Source: a virus. Taken from it: DNA of 30,192 bases. The translations under genes and the position numbers were made by a program. This document shows, piece after piece, positions 2,343-27,759 of the stretch (position 1 is the first letter of the stretch; the number at the start of each line of letters is the position of its first letter). Location of the stretch: IMG/VR virus record IMGVR_UViG_3300046003_002654, positions 1 to 30,192 of that record; one strand, 5' to 3'. The notes under the pieces were generated by a model, which did not search any database, was not told the DNA's origin, and worked only from the letters and a program-made list of their open reading frames with translations.

Positions 2343-3131
2343 CTATTTAGGAAAAAGAATAAAAGATGTGTCGATACCAATGTTTCTTCCCTCCTTGCCT
2401 CTTAAAGTGAGTATCCAGCCTCCGATTGTTGGGTTTACTCCTTTAGCCAGTAAGTAGGGTGTTTGGCGTTGGAACGAACCAGCCATTAGACAGTGCATAT
2501 TTCTGTTAAAGAAATAGACGCTTGAGTGGTAATGTCCACAGATAAACACGTTGGGTTTGTCTCCGCTTGTCATCTGCTCTGCAAACTTCTGCATTTTGTA
2601 ACTCAATGCGTAAGCTGGTGAACCGCTGGGGTGCATAAGTCTAAACTTAATTCCGCCAATTGTAATGTCAGCTTGTAGTGAGCCAATGTAGGTGATGTCT
2701 GGAGAGTCGATAAGTGAGCCGATGTCTATTCCTGCGTCTTTCCAAAAACTCATATCGTGGTTTCCGGTGATGAAATATGTTTTCAAGTTTCTTGGATAGT
2801 TCTTCTTAACATATTCCGCTTGGTTGTTTGCTCCGAAAGTTTCAAGCTCGTATTCTCCGCCCCGATATATTTTGTGGCTTCCCTGAACTATATCTCCAGA
2901 GTGGAGAGCAATCTCGCAACCTTCTTTCTCGGCGTGTTTGTAAAAGTGGTGCAGGGCTTCTAGATCCGCATAAGTTGAACCTAAGTGAGTATCAGAAACA
3001 ACAGCAATCTTGACTTCTTCGTGTTCTTTGTAAAGTTTGTCGATGTTTCTAATCTTAGGTTTCTTCTTATTGATGAGGATTTTGTCCAGCTCCGCTTCCG
3101 TTAGTCCATACTTTTCCAGTCGGTTTTTCAT
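2343..3131 (-). CDS. Calcineurin-like metallophosphatase (cytoplasmic)
   Basis: A 262-residue two-metal phosphoesterase. After a helical N-terminal 40 residues, the standard metallophosphatase signature follows: D47-T-H49 (VVSDTHLGS), GD80, GNHD with N124/H125, H167 (LMHPSG) and GH200-Y-H202. All metal-binding and catalytic residues are present, so it should be active on a phosphodiester or phosphomonoester. The substrate is unknown. There is no signal peptide, so it should act in the cytoplasm. The start has a strong Shine-Dalgarno site (GGAGG about 6 bases before ATG), unlike most genes here, and overlaps the upstream gene by 4 bases. A second, secreted member of the same superfamily lies at 9346-10008. 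Confidence 0.9.
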   Translation of the reverse strand: MKNRLEKYGLTEAELDKILINKKKPKIRNIDKLYKEHEEVKIAVVSDTHLGSTYADLEALHHFYKHAEKEGCEIALHSGDIVQGSHKIYRGGEYELETFGANNQAEYVKKNYPRNLKTYFITGNHDMSFWKDAGIDIGSLIDSPDITYIGSLQADITIGGIKFRLMHPSGSPAYALSYKMQKFAEQMTSGDKPNVFICGHYHSSVYFFNRNMHCLMAGSFQRQTPYLLAKGVNPTIGGWILTLRGKEGRNIGIDTSFILFPK

Positions 3132-5990: not shown

Positions 5991-6348
5991 TGTTATTATA
6001 AATATTATCTATAATAGTAAAAGGAGAATGACCGTCGCTGTATTCTACCGTAAAATCTTCCCACGCTTCATTGTTTATTTCTTGGCTACTATTGGTGATT
6101 GGATAAACATTAAAAGCATTGTTTATATAAGCCACATCTCCAATAAAACCGTTTTCGTGTTGAAGAATATATCCCTCATAAATTTCTTTACCATCTCGAT
6201 CATTTAATCCGGTGTATTGCATCGGTATTAAATTTATAGTTATATTCATCATAAAATCAAATAAGTAAGACTTATTATCCCAAATTCTATCCCAATCTAC
6301 TATCTTTTTACCCCACACGTCCCAAGCTTTAAATTTAATTGGTCTCAT
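5971..6348 (-). CDS. YopX family protein
   Basis: A 125-residue phage protein of the YopX family. It starts with the typical R-x-IKFKAWD and has the central MQYTGLNDRDGKEIYEGYI, which is the family hallmark (QYTGL-D--GKEIYEGD). In most relatives the last residue of that motif is D; here it is Y. The biochemical role of YopX proteins is unknown. They are common in phages and prophages, often within replication/recombination modules as here. It overlaps the exonuclease gene by 14 bases and the NinB-like gene by 20. Confidence 0.8.
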   Translation of the reverse strand: MRPIKFKAWDVWGKKIVDWDRIWDNKSYLFDFMMNITINLIPMQYTGLNDRDGKEIYEGYILQHENGFIGDVAYINNAFNVYPITNSSQEINNEAWEDFTVEYSDGHSPFTIIDNIYNNIGNYEI

Positions 6349-6928
6349 ATTTTTTAGTTAATTCTTTTATTAGTTCTATCCCTTTTTTAATACCAGCTTT
6401 TAGCTTTTCCTGTTTAGCCTTGTCCGGTTTTTGCCGGAAGATAAGTAAATTTCGGTCAAAGTTCGGATTATAGAAAGCGAGATCCCAAAATTTTCTCTTT
6501 GTAATTAATAGACACATCTGGCATTGCCATAAATACTTCGTTTCTATCGATTTTTCCCCACTCACAATCAGTTTGAAGAAGTTAACATCGTTTACGCACT
6601 TAATCTCCAGTCCACCGTCTTTTCCAATTAGTCCGTCTGGGCTACAACCAACATATTTATCAAGTTCTATAAATCCAACCTCCTCAACCTTTTCTCTCTC
6701 GATTTCATAAGTCATTCTCGCTAATGGTTCTAGCTCGTTTCCTCTTGCAATATCTGAATTGGTGTATTGATCTCGATTGTTTGAATACTTCTCGGCCAGT
6801 AATTGATAAACATAGCTCTCAAGTCCTTTTCCGTTGGCGGAGATAGCTTGTGCGTTAGAAGCGGTCAGGTGTCCGGCTCTAACATTAAACCACTCCTCTG
6901 TTCCTTGTTCTAAATTATAGATTTTCAT
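6335..6928 (-). CDS. YqaJ/lambda-exonuclease family alkaline exonuclease
   Basis: A 197-residue 5'-3' dsDNA exonuclease that would make ssDNA tails for the ERF annealing protein next to it. Motifs from the chosen ATG (6928): EEWFNVRAGHLTASN (10-24), GNELEPLA (63-70), SPDGL with catalytic D98, and GLEIK with E108 and K110, followed by a helix with WQCQ. These are the PD-(D/E)XK residues of the YqaJ family. Two further in-frame starts exist upstream, at 6952 and 6985. The one at 6952 arises from a 24-bp tandem duplication, so the true start is uncertain. I chose the ATG closest to the conserved domain. Confidence 0.85.
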   Translation of the reverse strand: MKIYNLEQGTEEWFNVRAGHLTASNAQAISANGKGLESYVYQLLAEKYSNNRDQYTNSDIARGNELEPLARMTYEIEREKVEEVGFIELDKYVGCSPDGLIGKDGGLEIKCVNDVNFFKLIVSGEKSIETKYLWQCQMCLLITKRKFWDLAFYNPNFDRNLLIFRQKPDKAKQEKLKAGIKKGIELIKELTKKYETN

Positions 6929-7679
6929 TTTCTTTGATTTTAGAATTTTCATTTTCTTTGATTTTAGATTTAAGTTGAGCCGCAAAAACTATAATATCCG
7001 GATTAGCTTTTAGTTCCTTAGCTAAACAAAGCCATCTAGCGTTGAGTTCTGCTACTGTATTGGATAGTGTTAAGTTCTCCTTAGCTCTTTCTACTTCTGT
7101 CGGGTCGGCCTCTTTTAGTTTAGCCTCATTGTCGTCTCCGGTCATAATTCCGAAAGCGTTGACGAAGGCGTATCTCTTGTTGAAGGTTACGGTGGCCGCT
7201 ATTTGCTGGGGCGCTGACATAATTTGAGTTTTAGTAGAAAGAGAAGTCTCCATTGTGCTTTCTTCTGAGTGTCCGTCTCGGTGTTTTACAATGCAGGTTA
7301 CCTTAATTCTTTCCGGTGCGTTTTCAGTTTTAAACGAGTAAGAGAAACCATGCTTCTGCATAAGTTCCCTTGTTTGTTCGACAATAGTGTCTAGTGTTGC
7401 GTATCTGTAAAGGTCTTTACCCTTACTCTCATCTCTTGCTGTGGTGCTTTTACCGATCACCGGACATTCTCCTTGAAACTCTGCCATAGCTTTATCAAAT
7501 CTTTCTTTACTCCACTCGGACTTAAGTTCTTTTCTCATGGCCAGTATTCGCTCCATAGTTTCGACTGGTACTCCGGATTGAATAGCCTGTGTTATCATTT
7601 TCTCGGTCGATGCCATTTGCTCTCGGTAGACATCTACTTCTTGCTTAACTACAATTTCTTGGGTTGTTTGCTTTTTCAT
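6915..7679 (-). CDS. erf: ERF-family single-strand annealing protein
   Basis: A 254-residue recombinase of the ERF superfamily, which anneals complementary single strands during phage recombination. The core shows YRYATLDTIVEQTRELMQKHGFSY (about 92-115), then a beta region, QQIAATVTFNKRYAFVNAFGIMTGDDNEA (about 158-187), matching the ERF hallmark of aromatic-basic 'RYA' and 'DDxEA'. The N-terminal 60 residues are helical with a coiled-coil feel, and the acidic/basic C-terminus ends in a duplicated octapeptide. It overlaps the exonuclease start by 14 bases. The pair forms a two-component recombination system. Confidence 0.85.
   Translation of the reverse strand: MKKQTTQEIVVKQEVDVYREQMASTEKMITQAIQSGVPVETMERILAMRKELKSEWSKERFDKAMAEFQGECPVIGKSTTARDESKGKDLYRYATLDTIVEQTRELMQKHGFSYSFKTENAPERIKVTCIVKHRDGHSEESTMETSLSTKTQIMSAPQQIAATVTFNKRYAFVNAFGIMTGDDNEAKLKEADPTEVERAKENLTLSNTVAELNARWLCLAKELKANPDIIVFAAQLKSKIKENENSKIKENENL
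6921..6968. repeat. Perfect 24-bp tandem duplication at the erf/exonuclease junction
   Basis: Positions 6921-6944 and 6945-6968 are identical. In the ERF frame the repeat encodes SKIKENEN twice at the protein's C-terminus. In the exonuclease frame it duplicates the ATG start and its upstream AAAGAAA. Because 24 is a multiple of three, both frames stay open. Confidence 0.9.
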
Positions 7680-8580: not shown

Positions 8581-9336
8581 CTATTTTATAAATATACTTT
8601 TATTTAGTTTGCTTTTGAGTTCGTTAATGGCCTTGCTTCTATCTTTATACTTTACAACGGGTAAAACCTCTTTGTGTTCTTCTTGCTCTCTTTCCGGAAA
8701 GTCTTTTTTAATTGCATTTAAAAGAAACGACTTATAGTTTTTATAGGTTTTTCCTTTAGCCTCACAATATAGATTAAGACTTTCAGCTTTATTTATAATT
8801 TCCTTCCTAGTAATAAAAAATCTTTGTGTTAAATATTTTAGATCTTCTTCCGGTATTTTTTCTAAATATTTTTTTGAGAGAGAGGTGTCTCTCCTCTCCT
8901 TACCTAACCTAACCTTACCTAACCTATGCCGTCCATTGGTTGTCCATTGGACGTCCATTTTTTTTTCTCCAGTCTTCTTGCCGGTATCGGCTCTTTCTTT
9001 AGCCTCTTTTATCTCAATATCTGGAATAACTTTAACTAATAAATCTTTATAAATACTATCTATTTTTCTGTCAGCTCTTATTAGATTATGTTCGTTCCAT
9101 TCTAAGATTAAAGAAACTAGATCTTCATTTAAAACTTTAATAAAATTTCTTAATGCTAAAGCTCTTAAATCGTCCTCTGAAGTAGATAATATTCTCATAA
9201 TAGTAAAGGCTTCAACAACGCCATCATCGTCTGCGTTCATACATAGATGAAAGTATAGATTTTGCGCGGAAGGTGTCATTTTAAGAAATCTTGCAGAGTT
9301 TATTATTCTTTTACTAAACATTCTACGTTGTGCCAA
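8581..9336 (-). CDS. Phage replisome organizer / replication initiation protein
   Basis: A 251-residue protein. Its N-terminal 100 residues match phage replisome organizer proteins common in Firmicutes phages: RRMFSKRIINSARFLKM, LYFHLCMNADDDGVVEAF, LVSLILEWNEHNLIRADR and SIYKDLL. These wing-helix domains bind origin DNA and recruit helicase. A low-complexity linker follows (about 112-150), encoded by iteron-like repeats, then a helical C-terminal part. The start codon is TTG at 9336, two bases inside the reading of the gap to the previous gene. The ATG at residue 6 (9321) is the alternative and still keeps the domain. The gene is expected to carry its own origin. Confidence 0.75.
   Translation of the reverse strand: MAQRRMFSKRIINSARFLKMTPSAQNLYFHLCMNADDDGVVEAFTIMRILSTSEDDLRALALRNFIKVLNEDLVSLILEWNEHNLIRADRKIDSIYKDLLVKVIPDIEIKEAKERADTGKKTGEKKMDVQWTTNGRHRLGKVRLGKERRDTSLSKKYLEKIPEEDLKYLTQRFFITRKEIINKAESLNLYCEAKGKTYKNYKSFLLNAIKKDFPEREQEEHKEVLPVVKYKDRSKAINELKSKLNKSIFIK
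8898..8927. repeat. Two 15-bp direct repeats (iteron-like)
   Basis: Units 8898-8912 and 8913-8927 match at 14 of 15 bases, core ccttacctaaccta. On the protein level they encode RLGKV/RLGKE-like pentapeptides. They lie inside the replication-initiator gene next to a 6-bp inverted repeat (8878-8883 with 8888-8893). Confidence 0.7.
8931..8963. repeat. Three 11-bp direct repeats plus T-tract (iteron-like, likely origin)
   Basis: The core gtccatt recurs at 8931, 8942 and 8953, exactly 11 bp apart (about one helical turn). The first two copies extend to gtccattgg. Eleven is not a multiple of three, so the repeat is conserved as DNA rather than as protein. A 9-base T-tract follows (8958-8966). Iterons inside an initiator gene are the usual layout of a theta-type phage origin. 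Confidence 0.65.
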
Positions 9337-9345
9337 TTTAGTAAT

Positions 9346-10008
9346 TTAAAAATTATCAATAACATATCCGCTTGTGGTCAAGGCTCCAATCCAATGGTAG
9401 TTTCCTTCAGTTTGGTTTCTATGAATATGCCCTGAATAGACAGTGATGTTATGCTCTTTAACTAGTTCATCTAACCAAGCGTATCTTTGCATTGAACGTG
9501 CGTCTTGATTGATTGGGTGGTGCATACCTATAACATCAACGCCTTCGATGTTGTCGTAAATCCATTGCCTCTGAACATCAGATATCTGCCCGATAGAGGA
9601 AAGGTCGGTGTAATTGGTATCTAAGACCATAATCTTTACGCCGTTTATCTCCCTAGTGTAATAAGTTTCCTTCGAAATATACCGGAAGCCGTCTTTATCG
9701 TGATTGCCTTTTACGAATAGCACCGGAACTTTTGAGATAGCAGAAGCCTTTTTTACCTGCTTTGCATATTTAGACGACTTCTTATTAGTGCTGTCGCCTA
9801 ATACTAGAATAAAATCTACCTTTCCGTTCATAATTTTAAGAGTCTTTTTAAATTCTCCCAGAGCTTTCTTGGGATAAACATAAGAGCCTTCTGAGTTCTT
9901 TCTAGCTTTCTCGCTACCAACGTGCAGATCGGAGATTAATCCAATATCGGCGGAGACTGGCTGGGTAAATGACAGTAGAGCGAACAGGGAGATTAGGAGA
10001 TGTTTCAT
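9346..10008 (-). CDS. Secreted calcineurin-like metallophosphatase
   Basis: A 220-residue protein with a clear signal peptide (basic MKH, hydrophobic LLISLFALLSF, likely cleavage after VSA20). All metallophosphatase motifs follow: D27-x-H29 (SDLH), GD72, GNHD (N102/H103), HH163-164 (MHHP) and GH194-x-H196. It should act outside the cytoplasmic membrane on an unknown phosphoester. A secreted phosphatase is unusual cargo for a lytic gene cluster. It could act on the cell surface, teichoic acids or nucleotides, but the sequence does not say. It has its own promoter-like element upstream (10033-10060) and lies just before the replication gene. Confidence 0.88.
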   Translation of the reverse strand: MKHLLISLFALLSFTQPVSADIGLISDLHVGSEKARKNSEGSYVYPKKALGEFKKTLKIMNGKVDFILVLGDSTNKKSSKYAKQVKKASAISKVPVLFVKGNHDKDGFRYISKETYYTREINGVKIMVLDTNYTDLSSIGQISDVQRQWIYDNIEGVDVIGMHHPINQDARSMQRYAWLDELVKEHNITVYSGHIHRNQTEGNYHWIGALTTSGYVIDNF

Positions 10009-11878: not shown

Positions 11879-14800
11879 TTAATTTCCATAAAGATTATAT
11901 TTATTCATTCCTGAAGTAGCTCTACCATACACATTTTCGCTGATTACCTTACCCTCAATTAGAGAATCTACATAGTTTTTATATTTATTCTCGTCCATTT
12001 CTTTTCTATAACTGTTTAAAATTCTAACCTTTTCATCATTAGTTTTCGCCTTTATAAGTCTATTTGTTTGATTTCCGGTCGCCTGTTTTACTCTTTCTTT
12101 TGAAATATCATTTCTCCAAAGAGTAATAGTTCTTTTCCAGTTTTCATCACTAGGAGATAGATTGAATTTATTTTTTAATTCTTCTATTATCTCGACTTCA
12201 TTTTTACCGTCCTTTATCATCTGTGGTATTATTTCTCTTTTCTCTAATAGTTTTTGAGCTGATTCTTTTGTCTGCTCTCTAGTTATGGCATTTTCTTTTT
12301 CCTGAAGGCCATAGTCGGATATTTTAATAAGCCTATTAAGGAGGGGAGTCATTTGGAATACTGTTTCAACCGTAGTATTGGTCGAGGTGTCATAAGTGGC
12401 AAACTGAAAAATACCTAAACTATTTGTAGTCCATTGTAGCATTTTTTGTAATGATCTCCAGCCACCAGCATTAAACGTAGTGTCGTCTATTACATTTCTT
12501 CCCCTAAAGGCGTCATAAGGATTTTTACCGGATAAATATGATACCCAAGCCGCCGGAATTGATATAGCCGGAGTAATAGAGGGTAATTGTCCAGCTCCTA
12601 TCGAAAATATTTGATTAAAACTTTCCAGCTTCCTGTCTTTAGCGAAATTCATCATCTTCCATAAAACCGCAGATAATAGTCTTCCGGTTTCGTCATGGGG
12701 TACTCTCATATAAACAGCTTTTCCATCTTCTTTAATACCAAGTGGGATAATAATATAATTTGTTTTGTCGTATTCAGAAACCTTGTCATAAAATCTCTTT
12801 AACCAATCGTCCTCATCATCATCTTTTTTACCAAGTAATAGTCCAAGAAGACCAGCCTGTGCGGCAAACATAGCTATTTTTGGCAGAAAATCAATCTTCA
12901 TCGTCTTCCACCAATAACCTTTTCTAGTATTAGGGCTTGTTGCTATTTGATAATCAGACTTTAATCCCTCTTTCATGATATTGGAAAACACAAAAAGTGC
13001 ATTTGTGGTTTTAGTTGAAGTTCCTTTTCTAGTCCAGTTTGGAGTTCCGGTATAGTTTCTTAAATTATAAGACAGTTTTTTACCAGACTCTCCAGCGCTC
13101 ATTCTTATTTTAGCTCCAGCTATTTTTGAAGTTATTTCTAGGGTGTTTGCACCTCTCCTCATAAATTCTAGCAACTTGATTATTCCTTTAACAACAGTTT
13201 TTCTAACAATGGGTGGTAGTTTTTTAAATCTTTCATCTGTCTTTATTAATCCATATCTTTCCATTATTTTACCAAACTCATCTTCTCTTGGATCAAAATT
13301 ATAATCATAAATAGGGGCTGTTATAGCTTTATTCTTTACAAGCTCCCTAGTAAAGTCGTCCATCTCACCTTGAGCATATTTATAAGCGGAAGGTAGGCTT
13401 TTAATATAGGCTTTTAATAGACCATATACAGTAGCGTCTCCAATCATCTTATAATTTCTCTTAAAGTCTCTAATAGGATTAAAAGCTAAAGCAAATCCCA
13501 TATTATAGGTAGTTACAATAGGCTTAAAAAACTTTCCATTAAATAGGTCAATCGCTTCTATTACGGCGTTTATACTATACAAAGAGTCTCTATTAAAACT
13601 TTCTGCGATGTATGGATCAACATCATAACTTTGCATTTTACCATTCTCTAATATTTCTATCGTTCCCTTTCCTTTTTCTGCTTTAAATACACTTAATTTT
13701 CCATCAGTAGTAATTCTCCTGCTCTTAGTTGCTTCATTCCCTAACATGTCTATCGTGGCTCTCTTTGCCTTCTGATAAGAATTGAGTCTATTAAGAGAAA
13801 CAGTTTTTAATATCGTTGAGGTTAATGGATTGGCTATCTCCTTGAAAGTACCCACTTGTTTTTTGATCGTTGCCGGCATATATTCTTCAATATAATCAAC
13901 AACTCTAAAAGAAGCGTAAGTATCTCTGTTTGGTTCTATTTTTTCTCTAAATAGTTCCTCGTTATAACTTCCAGCCTCGACTGCTTGTTCTACTGTCTTA
14001 AATACTATCTCGTGAAATTCTTTCAATTTATCAGCCATTAAATTGTATTTACTTTCCCCAATATTGTCTCTTAAATATTCTAACTGCTCTTTTGCACTAT
14101 CGGGAGTAAATCCATAAGGGTTGGCAATATCGGCTCGGTCGTTCATTATTCTGGTCAATGTTAGGTATTCCCCCATATCCTCCATTGTTATTCCGGAGAG
14201 TTCTAATGGTTGGATAATGTTATCGTTTATATCTTCTAACATTAAATAGTTGTCATTGTCGGAAAAAAGCACTTCTTCTAATAAATAAGCTGGGTTATTA
14301 TCTTCTTCTAATGCTCTACCACTAGCCTCTAGTTCCACCTGACGTTTTAGAATTGGATAATTAACATCATCTAGCTGTTGTCTAAGTCTTTCGGTGAATC
14401 TTTTATCTGCGTTTTTTTTATTATCAATTATTTTTTTAACTCTACTTTCAGCTTTTTCAAATCCAGCTCTCAAGTCTTTCTGTCTTTGTTTAACAATTTC
14501 TTCTCTGCTTCCGTTGAGTAATTCTTGAACAGCAAAGTATTCTGATTTTACTTCAGGCTTATTATCTAAGTATTTAAAGAAGGCTTTTGTAAACTGTGGA
14601 GCTTTTTCTTGTAAGAATCCCGGAGAGTTAAAGAGTACGGATAAAGCGTCCGCATAAAGTTCGGTTGAGCTGTATCTATATTTTGTGTAATTTTCATTAA
14701 CTTGATCATCAAAAGGCTTCCATAATTGAGTAAGGGCTTTTAATTCTCCTCTTATCTGTTTATTGCTAAAATTAGGGTCATTGGGTAACTTCTCTTTTAA

Positions 14801-17800
14801 ATACTTAGTAAACTTTGCTATCTTGGCTAGAATATTACCACCGGTTGACGTAGTAGTAGGAAGATAATCAATTATGTGTCCTAGCTCGTGAGCAATTACA
14901 GCTTTTCCGGCCTTTATCTTTTTTTGAGTAAATAAGGAAGCTAATACTCTAATTCTTAAAGTTCCAGATTGAGCGTCTCCTAATTTACCTCTCATACCCT
15001 TTTTAACTTGAGGATATTTTCCGGTAAGGTCTTTAATTAGGCCAATAATCTCAGGAAGTTCTATTGGCCTTACATGTTCCAAACCACCCATATTTTCTCC
15101 AGTTAGTTCTTCATAATCAGAATATCCCTTATCTTTTTTATCGTAAGCAGACTTATAACCATAATCATTACTTAACTTCTCATTCTTCTTGACAACCTCT
15201 CTCAATGCTTCCATATAAACACTCCTTGCGTTTATTTTTGAAACTTTGTCAATATCAGCTAAGGAAATCTCTCTAAACATCTGTTTATTCATATCATCGT
15301 TAGTCTCAAACTGTTCAAAAGGATTTTTACCGCTAGCAGATTTAATGGCTGGAGCTTCTCCTTTAATAATTGCTTTAATATCTGGAGTTAATCTTATTCC
15401 CTGTTGAGTTGTTTTCTTAACGGAGATGTCGAATGTTTCTTCATTTGTTTTTATAAATTTTTCCCTATCGGCAACTAATTTACTAATAACTGCATCGTCA
15501 AGAGAAGTTTTCTTTTTTAAAGCCAATCTTTTTAAGTAAGCGTCTTTTCCGTTTTTCAAGTCGGCTATAAATCCCTCAACATTATAAATTGGTTCTTTTG
15601 GCACCGCCTTAAATTTACCGTTTCCTAAAACATCGGTAATGATATATTGATTCTCATTAATTTGAAACATTGTGCCAACTTTCAAATCCTTGATGGTTAG
15701 TTGTCCTTTTACATAAAACTTCCAATCTGGATCTCCTTCTTTTGCGCCCTCTAGTAATTCCATTCTTTTTACTTCTTTATCTACCGGCAAACCCAAGTCC
15801 AACATTTCCACTTTTCCACCAGTTAAGTTTTCAATAATATTCTTAACCTGTCTATCATAAAGATTTGAAGCCCATTCACCACCAAATTTTAATCCTTCAC
15901 CAGACAGCGTTCCTTCTTCTTTTTCCATTATTTTATCTGCAAGACCCTTACCTAATACCTCGTCTAAGGTTTTTCCATTCCAACTACTAACACCCTCACT
16001 AATTACTCCCTTTTTATCAATATAAAAATTTATCACATTGCTTCCACTTTTAGGCATTATCTTAATATATTTCTTTCCTAAAGTGTCTCCCTTTGCTGAA
16101 ATATACCACTTAACATCTTTAACGTGAGTTGCTAAATTATACCTATTACTGGTTTGTTCTCCATTGATCCACGAGAAATATTCTGCTCCACTATCAACAG
16201 CTTCTTTTAAAGCTCGTTTAACAGATAGTTCTTGCCATTTTTTGAGGAGAGGGTTGTTTGGTACGCCGGGTTTATAATCTCCCATTAATTTATTTTCACC
16301 AACAGCTTTACCGATAGCTACATTTTTACTTCCACCATACGCTTCTCCTTCTCCTAACTTATTTTTAACTTTATTACCATTGTTATCAACAATCCAAAAG
16401 GTATCACCATTACTTTCTACCTTCCACCCTTTAGGAAGGAGTTTCTCTGGATTGGTCGGAACTTGATCAAAACCTCGCTGTCTTCCTTCTCTCGCCCAAT
16501 CGCTCTGCAATTCTTCCATAAAGGCCACTTTATTACCTTTGTAGGTTCTTTCATTCATTCGGAGATGAGAAATGACGTTTAGTTCGTCCCAATGAGATGA
16601 TTTAAAAGAGCCTTTAGGCGCTGGAGGAGTGTCATACGATACTAATTCTTCGTATTCCAACCCTATACCTCTTAAGTGATTTGGTACATCTTCAACAAAA
16701 TCTTGATTTCCGTCTAACACAATAACATCTCCACCCATTTCTTGTTCTATCGTAAAGCCTTCTTTCTCAAACTCATCTTCAATTTCTTTAAGTCTTTCTT
16801 CTCGTCTTGCCTCTAAATCTATTGGTTTAGAATTTCCCATTGGTGCCTTAATCAATATCTCTTTGTAGTTTTTACCGCCGGGTAGAGTATATTGAGAGTA
16901 CTTGGTGATATTTCCTCTATCGTCTTGTATGTTGCTAAGTTCTTGGAATCTTTCACTTAGCCCTTCCTGATTTATTTCTGTATCACTCATTTGATTAAGC
17001 TCTCCCAATTCAGCTTCTTCTTCTGTGGTTAAAAATCTTTGTTTTTCGCCCAACACAGTCTCCTCTGTTTCTTTTAATTCCGGAGCAAATTCTTTACCCT
17101 CAGCAACGACTGACTGGCCTTTAATGTTTTGGAATTGGTTTTTAGACACAATATAGGTTTCTCCGTCTTGAAGAAGTATCTTATTTCCTTTCAATTCGTA
17201 CGGTGTAAGTGATTCTCCTTCTGGAATTACTATCTTATTGCCATGTATATCTGTTATTGGTACATCTCTTTTTAATTGTATATCTGGGTATCTTTTCATT
17301 ATGTCTCCAGCAGAAAGACCTTTGGAATCTCTTAGGTATTGCTTTATTTCCTCAATGTTTTTAAAACCACTATCATCTTTTATCCAAGACCTTTTTGCGT
17401 TATCGAACTTCTCAAATCTAGCTATCCGGCTTGAAAGTTTGCTATCGTTTTTATAAAACTCTTTAAATATATCAAGGGCGGAAAGACGACTTACTTTTCC
17501 GGTAAATGACTTTCTAATTATTTTATATAAAACTCTATTGCTTAGATTCACAAAAGCATGAATAAAGTCAATTAAATACTGCACCCAACTCTTTTGAATT
17601 GCTGTTTGTCCACCACGATTATTTTCTTTTATTGCTTCTCTTGACGCCTCAGTAACAGCCAACTCTTGAGCCATATACTCTTTAAATAATTGATTTTTGC
17701 GATAATTTTTGCCTAAGTGTTTTTTAAATACTCTTGTGTATTTATCATATCTCCAAGATCCGTCAACACTACTTTTTCCCATAGTCTCTCTATTCTCTTG

Positions 17801-20800
17801 TTCAGACCTACTACTATAATAAGCAACAGCGTTCTGTCGTTCAGCGTCAGACATTAAAAGCCAACCAAAGTGTAATGGTTCGTGATAAATAGCTTCTTCT
17901 GTTAATTCTCTGCTCCAGCCACTAGCTATTGACATAATTCCAGTTCTTGAGTCGTGGCCACCAACAGCTCCCAAAATATCATCTAGGTTATTAAATATTA
18001 CACTAGAGTTAATATCCATTAACAATCTCCTATTAATAGATGGGTCTAGATTTTTTCTGAATTGAGCAATCATTCTTTTGACACCGGAGACACTCATGCC
18101 ATCTTCTAATTGCCTATCTGAAAGCATATACATTTTACTAATAACTTCCGAATCTGTCTTTTTGGTTTCTTTCTTTTTATCCATTACATTTTTATTTGCA
18201 AAGTGCATTGGATTGAGGTTATCTTCGGAAATTGAAAGATATATTTCATCAGATTTGTCTAGAGACTTTATTGCATTTTCTAGAAATTTATTACTAATAC
18301 GCCAGTCTTCTTCCGTATGACGAATTGGCATAATTATTACACCCTCCCTTAAACCATCTGACGACACCTTATTCTCTTTAACACTCAGCTCTATTGTCTT
18401 TTTCAATTTACTTTCTCCACCACTAACAGTCATGCTTAATTTACCGTTTTTGTTTTCAAGTATAATATCTGGCGCTCCAATTACTTTTACTATCGGATTT
18501 AAACTCTTAACAGCTGACTCTAATTCTTTTCTGTTTATTACGATCTGCTTTTTAAATCTAGGAGCAATCTGTTTAATATCAGGATATTTTCCTACAGTTA
18601 ATCTAGACATAACATAGCCATTGTCTCCCTGAATAACAATAAATCCACTCTCATCTTTATCTTTTGTTATTTTAATAGTCAATTCTCCTTCTAATGATTT
18701 AATAGCTTTTGATATTATTGCTGAATTGGGAACAATAACAGATTCTATATTGTTAAATACTTTACTTTTTACTTTAGATATAATTAAAGAATAAGCGTCG
18801 GTTGCATGGAAAGAGGTACTGTCTTTTTCTGATTGTATTTCAATACCTTGTAACTCATGCTTATACTCCTCTTTTGAAATGAAGGTAGAAGATTTTTGAA
18901 AAATATCTATAAGTTCATCTCTATCTACTTTAATTATTTTTTCAGTATCTTTTATGCTAGGTACTTCTGGGAAATCTGACATATCCATCTCGGTAGATAT
19001 AAACTCTTTTCCAATTGGTATATACATTCCATCACCCAGTTTGGTATCTAGTACAATGGCCACTTCTAAATTAGTGGCGTACATCTTGCCATTTTCTACC
19101 TTTACATTTGCCAGTATCGGAAGACTGGGCTTCTTTGAAATTACGCTTTTCACTCCATTTATAGCTGTTTCAACTTTAATTTTCTTAATAGTTGGTTTAC
19201 TTTGCAATTTCTTAACTTGTTCTTTTGCTCTCTTGTCAGCTTCTTGATCAACAACAGTATTGTCGTCGCGATAATCTGTAAAATTATTTCTACCGGACTT
19301 TTTCCAATTATCTCCATTTCTATTCATTGTATTTTTGTAAGTCTTTGAACTTTCAAATTCTACGTAAGTTGACTTCTTTTTATCAACTTCCTTCTTGAGT
19401 TTCTTGGTTTCTTCTATAAAGTCTGGTACTAATTCTATTGAAGTATCTTGTTTTTTATCGTCTATTCCATTTTCTTTTCTAATCTCATCATAAAGTTCTT
19501 TGAGTTTAAAAATCTCTCTTACTTCTTTTCCATTTAATTCTGATACTGATATTCTATCTCTACCGATTTTCTTGCCATCAAGATAGCCCCCGATGTTAAC
19601 ATGATATTCATCAGTATATGCTCCGCCTTGACCAGACATTAAATCTTCTAATGGGTCTCCTCTTTTAACATAATATTCAATCATATCTTTAGCGGCATCT
19701 CTGGCGGTTTTTATTTTAGTCTCCGGTTCAACTTGTTTCTTTGTAATACTTCTTTTTTCTAACCACTTTTTTGCTTCTTTTTCACTACTAAAATTTCTAT
19801 GTAGAGTATGGCCATCTTTTTTATATTCTACACGATAAGGTAATGGTTTTTTCCCAGTATATTCAACTTCACTAGGTTTAATAGATTGGGATTTGAGGGT
19901 CGTTTCTTCCTTAGTTTTAACTTTTTCTAAATAACTTTTATAGTTACCTTCCCCCCAAGCCTTATAGATTGATTCATTTTCACCCTCAGCTGTTTGAGAA
20001 ATATCAAAAGAAGGGTCATATTTCATGATTTCATTGATTAAATTCTGTCGTTCTATTACTCTCCTGTGTTCTCTTAATGTTGAGTATAAATTATCTTCAT
20101 TCCTTAATTCTTTACTCATTCTATCTATTTCATCTATTTGGATTTGAATACTCTTTTTTTCTTCAGGTGTTGTTGATAATTTCTTCTTTGCCAATAAATC
20201 ATCTTTACTAATTACTAAATCAAGTCTTTTACTTTGTAATTCTCTAGTTTTTTCTGGTAATTCTTTTGCAAATTCTTCGGGTGTCATATTCTCAAACTGT
20301 GTTCCCTTTATAACCTCTTGAGCCTGTTTAAATTCCGGTAATACAGTTGCTGTTACCTTTGGTAATTCCTGTCCAGTCTTCTGTTTTATTTCTTCTAGTT
20401 TTTCATTTATACTACTAATATCTTCTGGGTGTACATTCTCTATTGGATTCTCTAAGTTTCCAGTATCTTTTTTTACTAATATTTCTCCAGTTGTTTGACC
20501 AAGAGCGTCTTCTCTTTCTTGTAAAATTTTCTCAATATATTTTTTATCTTCTTCTGCCTCTGGCATGGCTCCTATTTTAGAGGCTTGATCAAAAACATCA
20601 TATAATCGTTTCAATTCATTTTTGGATAAATTAGATATATTATCTTCCACAAATTTAGTATTATTATCTTGAAGGGCTATGATAATATCTGCAACTTTTT
20701 TGTTTTTATCGTTTTGTTGTGGTGGCTCCTCAGATAATCCACCTCCGTCTGGCGGTACTTCCGGTAAGTTAATACTAGAATCTTTTATTTGGTTGGTTTG

Positions 20801-21943
20801 TTCTCCCCTACGTATAGATTGGACTGCTCCAAACGGCGCACCGACAACTGCTCCAGTAAAGGCACTTTCAGCCACTCCTTCAGATAATTTTCTATTATCA
20901 ACTCCACCGAGAACAGCCAATAAGTTTTGAGAAAACTGTTGTGATCCCTCAGTCAATCCCTCCTCTAACATTTGTATCGGGATATTCTTTAAACCTCGCT
21001 TTAATATTGACTTAGCTTCTTCCTTGCCGACGCCTTTCATAAACTTAATAAACGGTGCCGTTTCTAATAAAGCTGAACCAATACCATAATAAGTAGATAA
21101 AACATCTGCTTTGTCTATTTCTTCCGGTGTTAGCTCTTTAACGTCTTTATTTAATTCTCTAGCTGTTGATTCTGCGTAATCATCAAACGCACTACCTTTT
21201 TCTTGAAAACCCATAACTGCCATCATTGGTACTGGGCTTTTAGTAGCAACTGAGGCTGTCAAGCCCATAGCCATACCAGCTGTAACCTCATTGAATTTAG
21301 CTAAATAAATATCCGGTCTTAATAACGGATTAACAATTCCACTTTCCTGAATTAATGGCTCTAAGTACTCTTGTGGTATTTTACTTTCATCTACTAACTT
21401 ATTTTTTAAATATCCTCCGGCTGATTCTATTTTTTTACCAGCATATTCTACTGAGCTACCAAGTCCGGGTAATTTAGACACTCCCGGCATAATCATATCA
21501 GAAACTCCAATGCGATTTTCTTCTCTATCTGTCGTCATTTGTCTTCCCATACTCTTTAATCCAGTTCCCATGTTCTTAAATCCCTCAGTAAAACCTTTTA
21601 AAATAACTTCTCCCTGACCAATTCCAACTCTTTTAGCCTTTTGTCCAAAACTTATCTGCTCATGTTCTACTTGATCAACTGGTTTTGGCTGTGTTACTCT
21701 TGGCTCCATTTCTTGAAGGTCTAATTGCCTCATTGATTCTTGGTCATTATTAAGCCTTTCGTTTTCAAGAGTTTGTAAGTTTCTATTGTGTGCCACGTTC
21801 ATAACGTCAATTCCATTTGATTTGGCTTTTTTCCAGTTATCATAAGAAGATAATGGGTCAGTTTTCCAACTTTCATTAGAATTATTTTGACTTTCTACTC
21901 CGACGTTTTTCTTTTTCTTTTTCCATTCTTCAAAAGATTCCAT
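11879..21943 (-). CDS. Giant polyvalent virion protein (3354 aa) with sliding-clamp and zincin domains
   Basis: One intact 10,065-base ORF, a third of the window. Known polyvalent proteins of phages and conjugative elements are packaged and delivered with DNA. Regions in order: Lys/Asn-rich N-terminus; Gly/Ala/Met-rich membrane-active-looking region (about 95-385); acidic coiled region (385-690); a DnaN-like beta clamp (about 918-1248: LPILANV, LQGIEI, ATDAYSL near 1046, VIVPNSAI, SRLTVGKYPDI near 1117, ISNKFLENAI); a zincin H1354-E-P-L-H1358; a polyvalent-protein region (about 1680-2055: TLPGGKNYKEILI, SSHWDELNV, EELQSDW); a second zincin H2352-E-L-G-H2356 with likely third ligand E2428; and helical C-terminal regions (2540-3354: NPIRDFKRNY, FVFSNIMKEGLKSD, hydrophobic 3020-3035, YIIIPLG). 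The role (ejected DNA-protecting, clamp-like and proteolytic factor) is inference. Confidence 0.85.
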   Translation of the reverse strand: MESFEEWKKKKKNVGVESQNNSNESWKTDPLSSYDNWKKAKSNGIDVMNVAHNRNLQTLENERLNNDQESMRQLDLQEMEPRVTQPKPVDQVEHEQISFGQKAKRVGIGQGEVILKGFTEGFKNMGTGLKSMGRQMTTDREENRIGVSDMIMPGVSKLPGLGSSVEYAGKKIESAGGYLKNKLVDESKIPQEYLEPLIQESGIVNPLLRPDIYLAKFNEVTAGMAMGLTASVATKSPVPMMAVMGFQEKGSAFDDYAESTARELNKDVKELTPEEIDKADVLSTYYGIGSALLETAPFIKFMKGVGKEEAKSILKRGLKNIPIQMLEEGLTEGSQQFSQNLLAVLGGVDNRKLSEGVAESAFTGAVVGAPFGAVQSIRRGEQTNQIKDSSINLPEVPPDGGGLSEEPPQQNDKNKKVADIIIALQDNNTKFVEDNISNLSKNELKRLYDVFDQASKIGAMPEAEEDKKYIEKILQEREDALGQTTGEILVKKDTGNLENPIENVHPEDISSINEKLEEIKQKTGQELPKVTATVLPEFKQAQEVIKGTQFENMTPEEFAKELPEKTRELQSKRLDLVISKDDLLAKKKLSTTPEEKKSIQIQIDEIDRMSKELRNEDNLYSTLREHRRVIERQNLINEIMKYDPSFDISQTAEGENESIYKAWGEGNYKSYLEKVKTKEETTLKSQSIKPSEVEYTGKKPLPYRVEYKKDGHTLHRNFSSEKEAKKWLEKRSITKKQVEPETKIKTARDAAKDMIEYYVKRGDPLEDLMSGQGGAYTDEYHVNIGGYLDGKKIGRDRISVSELNGKEVREIFKLKELYDEIRKENGIDDKKQDTSIELVPDFIEETKKLKKEVDKKKSTYVEFESSKTYKNTMNRNGDNWKKSGRNNFTDYRDDNTVVDQEADKRAKEQVKKLQSKPTIKKIKVETAINGVKSVISKKPSLPILANVKVENGKMYATNLEVAIVLDTKLGDGMYIPIGKEFISTEMDMSDFPEVPSIKDTEKIIKVDRDELIDIFQKSSTFISKEEYKHELQGIEIQSEKDSTSFHATDAYSLIISKVKSKVFNNIESVIVPNSAIISKAIKSLEGELTIKITKDKDESGFIVIQGDNGYVMSRLTVGKYPDIKQIAPRFKKQIVINRKELESAVKSLNPIVKVIGAPDIILENKNGKLSMTVSGGESKLKKTIELSVKENKVSSDGLREGVIIMPIRHTEEDWRISNKFLENAIKSLDKSDEIYLSISEDNLNPMHFANKNVMDKKKETKKTDSEVISKMYMLSDRQLEDGMSVSGVKRMIAQFRKNLDPSINRRLLMDINSSVIFNNLDDILGAVGGHDSRTGIMSIASGWSRELTEEAIYHEPLHFGWLLMSDAERQNAVAYYSSRSEQENRETMGKSSVDGSWRYDKYTRVFKKHLGKNYRKNQLFKEYMAQELAVTEASREAIKENNRGGQTAIQKSWVQYLIDFIHAFVNLSNRVLYKIIRKSFTGKVSRLSALDIFKEFYKNDSKLSSRIARFEKFDNAKRSWIKDDSGFKNIEEIKQYLRDSKGLSAGDIMKRYPDIQLKRDVPITDIHGNKIVIPEGESLTPYELKGNKILLQDGETYIVSKNQFQNIKGQSVVAEGKEFAPELKETEETVLGEKQRFLTTEEEAELGELNQMSDTEINQEGLSERFQELSNIQDDRGNITKYSQYTLPGGKNYKEILIKAPMGNSKPIDLEARREERLKEIEDEFEKEGFTIEQEMGGDVIVLDGNQDFVEDVPNHLRGIGLEYEELVSYDTPPAPKGSFKSSHWDELNVISHLRMNERTYKGNKVAFMEELQSDWAREGRQRGFDQVPTNPEKLLPKGWKVESNGDTFWIVDNNGNKVKNKLGEGEAYGGSKNVAIGKAVGENKLMGDYKPGVPNNPLLKKWQELSVKRALKEAVDSGAEYFSWINGEQTSNRYNLATHVKDVKWYISAKGDTLGKKYIKIMPKSGSNVINFYIDKKGVISEGVSSWNGKTLDEVLGKGLADKIMEKEEGTLSGEGLKFGGEWASNLYDRQVKNIIENLTGGKVEMLDLGLPVDKEVKRMELLEGAKEGDPDWKFYVKGQLTIKDLKVGTMFQINENQYIITDVLGNGKFKAVPKEPIYNVEGFIADLKNGKDAYLKRLALKKKTSLDDAVISKLVADREKFIKTNEETFDISVKKTTQQGIRLTPDIKAIIKGEAPAIKSASGKNPFEQFETNDDMNKQMFREISLADIDKVSKINARSVYMEALREVVKKNEKLSNDYGYKSAYDKKDKGYSDYEELTGENMGGLEHVRPIELPEIIGLIKDLTGKYPQVKKGMRGKLGDAQSGTLRIRVLASLFTQKKIKAGKAVIAHELGHIIDYLPTTTSTGGNILAKIAKFTKYLKEKLPNDPNFSNKQIRGELKALTQLWKPFDDQVNENYTKYRYSSTELYADALSVLFNSPGFLQEKAPQFTKAFFKYLDNKPEVKSEYFAVQELLNGSREEIVKQRQKDLRAGFEKAESRVKKIIDNKKNADKRFTERLRQQLDDVNYPILKRQVELEASGRALEEDNNPAYLLEEVLFSDNDNYLMLEDINDNIIQPLELSGITMEDMGEYLTLTRIMNDRADIANPYGFTPDSAKEQLEYLRDNIGESKYNLMADKLKEFHEIVFKTVEQAVEAGSYNEELFREKIEPNRDTYASFRVVDYIEEYMPATIKKQVGTFKEIANPLTSTILKTVSLNRLNSYQKAKRATIDMLGNEATKSRRITTDGKLSVFKAEKGKGTIEILENGKMQSYDVDPYIAESFNRDSLYSINAVIEAIDLFNGKFFKPIVTTYNMGFALAFNPIRDFKRNYKMIGDATVYGLLKAYIKSLPSAYKYAQGEMDDFTRELVKNKAITAPIYDYNFDPREDEFGKIMERYGLIKTDERFKKLPPIVRKTVVKGIIKLLEFMRRGANTLEITSKIAGAKIRMSAGESGKKLSYNLRNYTGTPNWTRKGTSTKTTNALFVFSNIMKEGLKSDYQIATSPNTRKGYWWKTMKIDFLPKIAMFAAQAGLLGLLLGKKDDDEDDWLKRFYDKVSEYDKTNYIIIPLGIKEDGKAVYMRVPHDETGRLLSAVLWKMMNFAKDRKLESFNQIFSIGAGQLPSITPAISIPAAWVSYLSGKNPYDAFRGRNVIDDTTFNAGGWRSLQKMLQWTTNSLGIFQFATYDTSTNTTVETVFQMTPLLNRLIKISDYGLQEKENAITREQTKESAQKLLEKREIIPQMIKDGKNEVEIIEELKNKFNLSPSDENWKRTITLWRNDISKERVKQATGNQTNRLIKAKTNDEKVRILNSYRKEMDENKYKNYVDSLIEGKVISENVYGRATSGMNKYNLYGN

Positions 21944-21963: not shown

Positions 21964-22812
21964 TTACCAACCACGTTCTATCTCTAATAAAGTTTTTTGA
22001 TTATTCATTCTTAACTTTTCTATTTCTAACCTAGATTTTTCTTCTTTATTAGGATCAACATAAGATTGATTCTTTATGTTAAGTTTCTCTTTTCCACCAG
22101 CGTCTAATCCACCACTAAAATATTCCTTTATAGCCTCTCTTGTTTTGGCATTTGGTGCGTTGATTAGAAGTTTGGTATATACGTCTGAGTGATAACCTTT
22201 TCCACCATTCATTTCAACACTAGATTCTAGCATATCCTTAGCGTATGAAAGATAACTATCATCACCTCCAGCAACAGAACCTCCACCACTTCCTCCTTTA
22301 TGAGCCTGTTCATAATCCCAACGTCTTCTACTTTCTGCCGCGTCTGATTCATAGTTAGCTTGAGATTGCTTCGCTTGAGCCAAATTCATATCTCTGCTCC
22401 AAGCACTTTCCATAGCGCTTACTTCTGCCTGACGTTTAGCCGCTTCTGCTCCATAAAGTCCAGTCCATTTTTGAATATAATCGTTATAAACACCTTCTCG
22501 GCGAGTTCTTTCATCTGTGAGATTGGTGTAGTCAATAGAAAGTCCTGATTGGTACTTCTCAGCTAAGGCTCGTCTTTGTGTTGGGTCTGAGATGTCTTTG
22601 TACTTATCTAGTCCGGCGATTGCACCACCAAGAACATTTTGTTGACTCTCGTTTATCTTTTGACTTAACGCTGGATCTTGAGCTTTACGATACTCGTCTT
22701 GTAGTTGGTATGGTAGTTTGGCAACCTCCCCAGCAAAAGAGGCATATTTGTTTTGTGCCTTCTCTAGTTTTTGACTAGCACTTTTCATACCACTTAAATA
22801 GTTTTTTGCCAT
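21964..22812 (-). CDS. Probable virion (internal) protein, 282 aa
   Basis: Not recognised by family. A long helical N-terminal part (1-170) is rich in Gln, Ala, Lys and Arg, with a Tyr/Ala pattern (SRDMNLAQAKQSQANYESDAAESRRRWDYEQ). A Gly hinge (KGGSGGGSVAGG, about 171-182) leads to a C-terminal globular part, ending in another helix. Position between the giant ejected protein and tail genes, and the helical Ala/Gln composition, resemble internal core/ejection proteins of podoviruses (T7 gp14-15 logic). Role is inferred from context. Confidence 0.55.
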   Translation of the reverse strand: MAKNYLSGMKSASQKLEKAQNKYASFAGEVAKLPYQLQDEYRKAQDPALSQKINESQQNVLGGAIAGLDKYKDISDPTQRRALAEKYQSGLSIDYTNLTDERTRREGVYNDYIQKWTGLYGAEAAKRQAEVSAMESAWSRDMNLAQAKQSQANYESDAAESRRRWDYEQAHKGGSGGGSVAGGDDSYLSYAKDMLESSVEMNGGKGYHSDVYTKLLINAPNAKTREAIKEYFSGGLDAGGKEKLNIKNQSYVDPNKEEKSRLEIEKLRMNNQKTLLEIERGW

Positions 22813-22813
22813 A

Positions 22814-23416
22814 TTATTGTAACATAGTATTAGTTGGTTGTTTATAGTAATTTCCCATATCTCCCCAGTAACGATTCGACCTTTGACTCTTGTACCATTG
22901 TTGCCAGTCTGCTATTTGAGACTTCTGACTAGCTTGTAATGTTCCTTCTTGCTTATTCGTATAATTGCTATATCCGGCTTGAGTAAGTCTATCAGTTCCG
23001 ATTGTTCTTGCTACTCCTTTTTGTTGTTGAGTTAACGCAGATTGAAAATCAGTATTCATTTCTCCTTCTACTCCAGTTCTTTCACTTCCAATTCCTCCGC
23101 CTTGATTAGCCATAGTAAATCTTGCTCTACGGAGTGATCGAGTATAGTCGGTTGTCGCGCTTTGTGTCCAAAGTTGTAAATCTTCAAGTTCGTTTGCTAT
23201 TTGTTGCTCTATATACGGTTTTACTTGATTTTCAGCCTGAGCCAAGTCCTCAGCTCCTAATTCTGGGTGTTGATTATAGTATTCTTCAAAAGTAGGTTGT
23301 ACTGTTTGTTGAGCCGGAGTGTTAGAAAGAACAGCGTCAAGAATAGATTTATAGTCTTTCTTTGTTCCGCCTTTCTTATTTTTCTTCTTAGTTCCTCCCT
23401 TTTTAGTCTTGGCCAT
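22814..23416 (-). CDS. Probable virion protein with Lys-Gly N-terminal repeat, 200 aa
   Basis: Starts with a strongly basic duplicated motif (KKGGTKK twice, residues 5-20). A Gln/Ala/Thr-rich helical body follows (EDLAQAENQVKPYIEQQIANE, SALTQQQKGVARTIG). A Gly-rich patch (NQGGGIGSERTGVEG, near 105-120) and a Trp/Tyr-rich end follow. No family recognised. The stop lies one base from the next virion gene. The N-terminus could bind DNA in the capsid. Function inferred from position only. Confidence 0.5.
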   Translation of the reverse strand: MAKTKKGGTKKKNKKGGTKKDYKSILDAVLSNTPAQQTVQPTFEEYYNQHPELGAEDLAQAENQVKPYIEQQIANELEDLQLWTQSATTDYTRSLRRARFTMANQGGGIGSERTGVEGEMNTDFQSALTQQQKGVARTIGTDRLTQAGYSNYTNKQEGTLQASQKSQIADWQQWYKSQRSNRYWGDMGNYYKQPTNTMLQ

Positions 23417-26628: not shown

Positions 26629-27759
26629 TTAAAGAGTTATGCTGGGATTTTCAATTTGATCATAAACATTAAGATTTACTATTCTACTATCAGTCAAGCT
26701 AGGAAATATACTTACCTGCTTCTTATCGTTAATCTTCATGGCCTGAATCGTCTGTAAGAATAGTTTTTCATAAGATTGAGCCTTCTTCTCATCTTCTCCA
26801 ATCCAAAACAGTTGAGCAAGTCTAGCTGATATTGCAAGTGGGAGTTGAACTCCAGTCTCAGAAGTGTCGTCAGTAAAGCCACCGGCATTCTTATAGTAAT
26901 AAAGTTCTACTGTTTTAATGCTGTCCGGTATTGGAGTTAGATTTAAGCCACCTTCCCATTCCCAAATAACTCTTGGGACTGTGGTTACAATAGTTGACCA
27001 GTTCATCAATTTATGTTCTTTTATTCTAATTGGCACGAGTGGGTCTCCGTCATAAGTAGCGTAAATAAGTTGACCCAAGTCTTCCGCTCCGGCCTCTGCT
27101 AGTGTGTAAGCCTGTTGACTTGCTACCGTACTAAATGTAACTCTTTTCTCTCTAAATCTCCAACGCCTAATTGCATAAATCTCAGCCTCGACTGAATCGC
27201 ACAAATTATCAAAAACATCTTCATTGTAAGGTCTTTGGTAAAAAGACTCGAAATTCTGTCTTATTTTACTTCGTGTGGTGCTTTTAAGTAGCGCGTAAGG
27301 ATAACCTCCAGAGTAACCACTTTCTGAGGCTGTGGTGCTATTGTACAAAGTAAAGAAAGCATATCCTGATGAATTGGTGCTATCCTTGTAATCGGTAAAC
27401 TTATTATCAACATCTAGGTCGGAAGTTGCTAAAAGTGTTTTAGCTCCAGTTTCTGTTACTGATCTGTAAAACTTAACCTGATTGTAGTTAAGTTTATAGA
27501 CTTTTGTACCAGCGTTGTGAGGAAATACCAAAGTCGCAACCTGAATTACCGTTCCTGCCGATACAGCGGCATTGATTTTCGCTATCTCTGTTCTGCTTTC
27601 ACCTATATTCCCAACTAATACGTAGTCATTATTCGCAAAACCACCATTATTATCAAGAGTTATGGAAACAGAAGCACCGGAAGCAACTGCCGTTCTTATT
27701 TGCGCAACCTCTTGTGAGTCGTTTAAAACTGATTGATTGTCAAATGATAGTAGTTTCAA
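26629..27759 (-). CDS. Head-tail adaptor-like protein with added N-terminal beta domain
   Basis: A 376-residue protein. Its N-terminal 150 residues form a beta-rich part with Ala/Ser/Asn repeats (NDYVLVGNIGESRTEI). From about 160 on the pattern is that of podovirus ring/adaptor proteins (T7 gp11, P22 gp4, SU10-like): LLKSTTRSKIRQNFESFY, CDSVEAEIYAIRRWRFREK, then a beta segment and VELYYYKN, ending in helices (LAISARLAQLFW, KAQSYEKLFLQTI). It directly precedes the nozzle gene. The N-terminal extension is longer than in T7 and may be a surface decoration. Family assignment is from pattern. Confidence 0.55.
   Translation of the reverse strand: MKLLSFDNQSVLNDSQEVAQIRTAVASGASVSITLDNNGGFANNDYVLVGNIGESRTEIAKINAAVSAGTVIQVATLVFPHNAGTKVYKLNYNQVKFYRSVTETGAKTLLATSDLDVDNKFTDYKDSTNSSGYAFFTLYNSTTASESGYSGGYPYALLKSTTRSKIRQNFESFYQRPYNEDVFDNLCDSVEAEIYAIRRWRFREKRVTFSTVASQQAYTLAEAGAEDLGQLIYATYDGDPLVPIRIKEHKLMNWSTIVTTVPRVIWEWEGGLNLTPIPDSIKTVELYYYKNAGGFTDDTSETGVQLPLAISARLAQLFWIGEDEKKAQSYEKLFLQTIQAMKINDKKQVSIFPSLTDSRIVNLNVYDQIENPSITL

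Follow-up and report, generated by a model that had tools for sequence, protein, structure and literature searches.

The window analysed here is a 30,192-nucleotide stretch of viral DNA (positions 1 to 30,192 of the IMG/VR record IMGVR_UViG_3300046003_002654), and it raises the question of what a sliding clamp is doing inside a giant phage protein: whether the segment is a clamp at all, whether its carrier is a protein that enters the cell with the phage DNA, and whether such a clamp could close into a ring. The carrier and the parts of its clamp are as follows.

11879..21943, minus strand: giant polyvalent protein ORF of 3354 aa, probably an internal virion protein that is ejected (one open frame throughout; match to LPD38; C-terminal module common to other phage giants)
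18185..19198, minus strand: clamp (DnaN-like) module, residues ~916–1253 (Pfam, PHROGs, NCBIfam, PDB sequence, AlphaFold2, Foldseek and VIA-align; homologous module in the phage L113)
18947..19192, minus strand: reduced clamp domain I, residues 918–999 (best-conserved part between the two fused clamps)
18563..18946, minus strand: clamp domain II, residues 1000–1127, with TDAYSL and SRLTVGKYPD (best PF02767 stretch, residues 1006–1122)
18185..18562, minus strand: clamp domain III, residues 1128–1253, without the C-terminal strand (secondary structure of the model; the VIA-align match stops at E. coli residue 355)
18320..18331, minus strand: internal MPIR motif, residues 1205–1208, apparently relocated from the clamp C-terminus (aligns with MPLK of L113 and MPMR of the phage Tunturi_4 at the same internal place)

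The initial annotation had placed a DnaN-like clamp at this position in the 3354-aa protein, and searches by sequence and by structure agree with it. The clamp segment matched PF02767 (1.9e-12, 47.9 bits against a cut-off of 27) and PF00712 (39.2 bits against a cut-off of 24.4), and on its own it matched phrog_947 of PHROGs with an E-value of 1.7e-24. The NCBIfam model TIGR00663 also identified it (1.7e-19), but at 70 bits, below the equivalog cut-off of 137.65, and a search of PDB sequences with the clamp returned B. subtilis DnaN (1.4e-9). Structure prediction bore out the clamp fold: an AlphaFold2 model of the segment (pLDDT 83.5, pTM 0.81) had solved clamps as its best structural matches in Foldseek (7.5e-17), and VIA-align superposed it on solved clamps with a Z-score of 27.8 and an rmsd of 2.6 over 309 aligned residues. 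The module thus has in common with the bacterial DNA polymerase III beta subunit, DnaN (PF02767, PF00712, TIGR00663; phrog_947), the clamp fold, domains II and III, the SRLxxGxYPD motif and the hydrophobic floor of the peptide pocket; it differs from DnaN in being embedded in a very long chain, in having lost most of the second half of domain I, in carrying MPIR internally with no C-terminal MPMR, and in being changed at H175 and R176. We consider it very likely that the module is a DnaN-derived cargo domain of a polyvalent protein.

The remainder of the giant, and its surroundings, bear on whether the carrier is ejected.

11924..15097, minus strand: C-terminal chassis module, residues 2283–3340 (34% identity over ~1080 residues to L019, L020 and L104)
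12482..12790, minus strand: LPD38 domain (weak), residues 3052–3154 (PF18857, 4.6e-5)
14876..14890, minus strand: chassis metallopeptidase motif HELGH, residue 2352 (motif scan; inside the chassis module)
15734..16888, minus strand: shared polyvalent-protein region, residues ~1686–2070, 'FMEELQSDWAREGRQRGF' (BLASTP to the giants of Dolichospermum phage Dfl-JY45 and ct7L0027)
17870..17884, minus strand: first HExxH motif, HEPLH, residue 1354 (motif scan; ~100 residues past the clamp)
21964..22812, minus strand: 282-aa protein encoded directly upstream of the giant, a possible internal virion protein (position; L113 has two similar-sized genes at the same place)
22814..23416, minus strand: Gln-rich protein of 200 aa, also encoded upstream of the giant, a possible internal virion protein (position only)
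26629..27759, minus strand: SU10-type head-tail adaptor, which marks the late structural module (PF24175, 2.8e-12)

The giant resembles the large polyvalent phage proteins with MPTase and LPD38 domains described by Iyer et al. (2017; PMC5512222) in being a multidomain late-region ORF with an HExxH motif, LPD38 and a helical C-terminal module. Its match to PF18857 was just below threshold (24 bits against a cut-off of 27), with an E-value of 1.5e-6 in a second scan; that paper describes LPD38 as restricted to polyvalent proteins of the phage type. The module bearing HELGH is common to Pelagibacter phage Baldr, L019, L020, L021 and L104–L109, the identity of the chassis to Baldr and others being weaker than that seen for L019, L020 and L104. 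A Pfam scan of the giant found no peptidase above cut-off, and the region around HEPLH was likewise without a family match in Pfam. Elsewhere in the chain, residues ~672–731 (window 19751–19930) gave a weak, sub-threshold match to Ribosomal_S6 (segment E-value 2.6e-4) and may form a small ferredoxin-like domain.

The giant gene lies in the late structural region, with a Collar-domain protein, the adaptor and tail genes upstream and an M23 peptidase downstream, and L113 has its late genes in a similar order, with an adaptor followed by tail proteins, two small proteins, the giant and an M23-type peptidase; the 282-aa upstream protein had no family match. The chassis module, the HELGH motif, the weak LPD38 match and the late-gene position make it very probable that the giant is a polyvalent virion protein of the ejected kind. 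The annotated setting of the clamp, as a domain of such a protein, is supported to that degree, ejection being deduced from family and gene order. Large proteins that are delivered with DNA and start the early life cycle are known, e.g., the virion RNA polymerase of phage N4 and the TraC1/SogL primases of conjugative plasmids, as set out in PMC5512222; those, however, are enzymes, whereas the cargo in the window is a clamp.

A DnaD-like helicase loader is encoded at window 8581–9336, close to the loaders of Lactobacillus and Terrisporobacter phages and 47–63% identical, over part of its length, to Bacillota phage proteins. Because of this resemblance the host is likely a member of the Bacillota, and because the phage has such a loader it probably depends on the host replisome; the phage itself is likely podovirus-like. 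Neither the chassis alignment nor the clamp alignment found a relative in genome_contigs, so no prophage host can be named. The window also holds overlapping genes for an Erf-type annealing protein and a RecE/YqaJ-type exonuclease, a recombination pair (6335–7679), and two metallophosphoesterase-like genes (2343–3131 and 9346–10008, the second judged from sequence only); in L113 a phosphoesterase-like ORF (16100–16978) lies near the M23-like peptidase.

Relatives of the chassis indicate that the clamp is not a fixed part of it. None of ten such relatives, which are giants or fragments (L003, L019–L021, L104–L109), carries a clamp, although several of them are shorter and L105 is cut off by the end of its contig, so that some of these absences may reflect length or truncation. 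The 3555-aa giant of L020 (L020:2522-13186), which has the same C-terminal chassis, carries instead an Eco57I-type methylase and an SNF2/helicase domain of the DarB-like antirestriction kind; it also gave a weak DnaJ-like match. The clamp thus looks like swappable cargo, since the ten chassis relatives do without it and one of them has a methylase-helicase in its stead. The DarB-like antirestriction polyvalent proteins (those of phage P1, i.e., DarB, of Vibrio phage VvAW1 and of L020) are built on the same kind of chassis, L020 having 34% identity to the C-terminal module in the window, and differ in that their cargo is a methylase and an SNF2 helicase where that of the window giant is a clamp.

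The annotation had proposed that the same fusion be sought in other large polyvalent proteins, and a second case was found. Single-protein scans of viral_contigs with the clamp or with the whole giant gave no matches, nor did a first mixed alignment yield a usable pattern; L111/L113 (IMGVR_UViG_3300025087_000231) was identified once the window and Tunturi_4 clamps were aligned together and used as the query. The L113 clamp has the same reduced architecture as that of the window at ~30% identity (5e-36), its model has a pLDDT of 86.7 and a VIA-align Z-score of 27.0, and its carrier is a 1754-aa ORF with LPD38 (3.7e-28, 99 bits) and an HEIGH motif. This giant is otherwise very different from that of the window, yet it has the same clamp module; isolate phages with the L113-type chassis are often annotated as encoding DarB-like proteins or methylases. 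A contig from another metagenome, L114, is identical to L113 over its whole 10.4 kb and holds the N-terminal (upstream) junction of the fusion at 100% identity. The fused clamps are two examples only, both from metagenomes. Among 94 other clamp-encoding loci sampled there was no fusion, every clamp ORF being of 553 aa or less, and at the sensitivity used no fused clamp was found in isolate phages and plasmids, whose annotated matches were free-standing clamp or hypothetical genes.

The annotation had also described a chain passing through all three clamp domains, and this holds for domains II and III, but domain I is incomplete. In the window clamp 21 of the 57 residues corresponding to E. coli 56–112, the second half of domain I, could be aligned and ~36 are missing, whereas 62 other clamps cover 44–57 residues of this region (median 56). 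The second helix of domain I is missing and Ile78 has no counterpart, while Pro (P1150) stands in place of Ile272, which lies across the canonical dimer interface; both Ile78 and Ile272 are among the conserved clamp dimer-interface residues listed in PMC11139829. The domain III side is further changed by E304 to K1182. As part of the domain-I half of the dimer interface is missing, with Ile78 gone and Ile272 replaced, a canonical ring is unlikely, and the suggestion that the protein might pre-load such a ring on entering DNA is not supported in the form first given.

What remains of domain I is unusually well conserved. Between the window and L113 clamps its identity is 44% (56% in residues 938–980), against 26–27% in domains II and III, which is the opposite of stand-alone clamp pairs of similar divergence, where average identity is highest in domain II; only 0.09% of 1176 stand-alone pairs, which are not independent of one another, favour domain I as strongly as the fused pair does. 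Because of this conservation the reduced domain I is unlikely to be a product of decay and probably makes a contact that matters. The two fused clamps also group in a tree with support of 99/93, although both branches are long and a false join is therefore possible.

The C-terminal MPMR strand, which completes the ligand pocket, is absent from the window clamp, and MPIR is found inside domain III instead. This absence had been ascribed to the chain simply continuing past the clamp, an explanation that does not suffice, since a stand-alone clamp shares it. The clamp of Tunturiibacter phage Tunturi_4 (XOB77407.1, L002:5923-7008) is a free-standing protein of 361 aa that has no C-terminal motif, and in it, as in the window and L113 clamps, the M-P-x-R/K motif lies internally; the loss of Ile78 and of the second helix and the replacement of Ile272 by Pro are likewise common to all three. 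Besides being free-standing, the Tunturi_4 clamp differs from that of the window in keeping TDGHRL and in not grouping with the fused clamps in the tree, where all branches are long. The shared deletions suggest a common origin of the three, which the tree does not show, and whether the Tunturi_4 clamp forms a ring would be informative.

The ligand pocket is partly kept and partly altered. In the window clamp the hydrophobic floor of subsite I is represented by L155, T172, L177 and P242, with V247 replaced by I, whereas the changes comprise R152K, G174A, H175Y, R176S, R246Q, N320S and Y323F. H175 and R176 are 96–98% conserved in other clamps, and are Y/S in the window clamp and K/M in that of L113; given these changes in both fused clamps, and N320S, ordinary clamp-binding motifs may bind more weakly. 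A motif scan found no clamp-binding motif for self-interaction in either the window or the L113 giant, and the two matches in other window proteins (0.8 expected) are not meaningful.

We propose that this is a reduced, DnaN-derived domain which podovirus-like phages carry as an exchangeable cargo module within a polyvalent protein that they eject. The giant would enter the cell with the DNA, as is thought for LPD38-type polyvalent proteins, and its clamp module, whether released by the putative metallopeptidase or still tethered, would act as a non-ring clamp mimic or docking platform, engaging host proteins that normally bind the beta clamp and steering them to the incoming genome or keeping them from it. 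Its partners could plausibly be the delta subunit of the clamp loader, whose binding to a monomeric clamp is ~50 times tighter than to the dimer (PMC11139829), and the RecB component of RecBCD, for which the canonical pocket of the clamp is the binding site (PMC13254535). A monomeric clamp of E. coli retains DNA binding, yet it can neither tether Pol III nor support processive synthesis (PMC11139829), so that the module could not just stand in for the host clamp. The constraint on domain I points to a key contact made by this domain and not only by the canonical peptide cleft. Taken as a whole, an ejected and exchangeable reduced-clamp cargo with a mimic or docking role is our best explanation, to which we give about an even chance. 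For its mechanistic part, a non-ring mimic or docking module as opposed to a self-contained sliding ring, we put the chance just short of even. More tentatively, the injected, remodelled module may belong to a new class of early effector that takes over or blocks clamp-dependent replication or repair in the host (e.g., RecBCD recruitment or the loading of clamps), making use of a new contact in domain I and not of a canonical ring. Mimicry of the clamp or competition with host clamp partners, as first annotated, may still take place; a simple global decoy is disfavoured by the changed residues of the pocket and by the likely need of the phage for the host replisome, and this need also argues against a global block of clamp loading.

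The main rival is that the ejected modules join through a new interface built on the reduced domain I and form a working sliding ring on the entering DNA, which would recruit host polymerase or repair proteins. Such an interface would be expected to be conserved, as the reduced domain I is, and the retention of domains II and III in both fused clamps, together with two further strands that the L113 model has in the domain I region, fits this as well; but little is left of the domain-I half of the canonical interface, and to close a ring either a loader or a DNA end to assemble around would be required, so that we regard a working ring as unlikely. A purely structural reuse, in which the clamp fold is now no more than a folded spacer, or part of the channel, in the ejection apparatus and has no replication partner, is rather less probable than that: in its favour are the partial erosion of the canonical cleft and the virion structural domains known from polyvalent proteins (PMC5512222), but ten related giants or fragments do without a clamp and the variable part of the L020 giant holds other, DarB-like cargo. 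Improbable to a similar or slightly greater degree is that the module poisons the host clamp, binding it by the remaining interface to give open or unloadable hetero-rings and an early stop of replication, an effect comparable to that of Twort Gp168. Phage attack on the host clamp is known from that protein (PMC11139829), and a retained domain III beside a reduced domain I is what such a subunit would have, but the interface residues of domain III are themselves changed (I272 to P1150 and E304 to K1182) and the phage seems to need the host replisome, judging from its DnaD-like loader. Least probable is an accidental or decaying insertion or an assembly artefact: there are but two examples and the reduced domain I could be read as decay, but the frame is open throughout, the folds are predicted with high confidence, domain I is strongly conserved, and L113 carries the same reduced architecture at ~30% identity with its upstream junction recovered identically in L114, so that simple decay or an assembly chimera was rejected and is largely excluded.

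Returning to the reading of the module as exchangeable, ejected cargo, the main text of PMC5512222 does not mention a clamp, DnaN, processivity or PCNA, nor does it name a sliding clamp among the cargo of the MPTase/LPD38 polyvalent proteins, and in the open-access literature we found no description of a fusion between a clamp and a polyvalent protein. A sliding clamp is a new cargo for a known kind of protein, and phages seem to bring a copy or mimic of a central part of the replication machinery into the cell as infection begins. The module is a small, separable domain that lends itself to direct tests. Its unusual architecture, in which domain I has lost much of one half and the terminal motif has apparently moved, may allow it to act without a canonical ring. 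If the overall reading is right, the central hub of bacterial replication would join RNA polymerase and antirestriction enzymes among the things that phages deliver ready-made.
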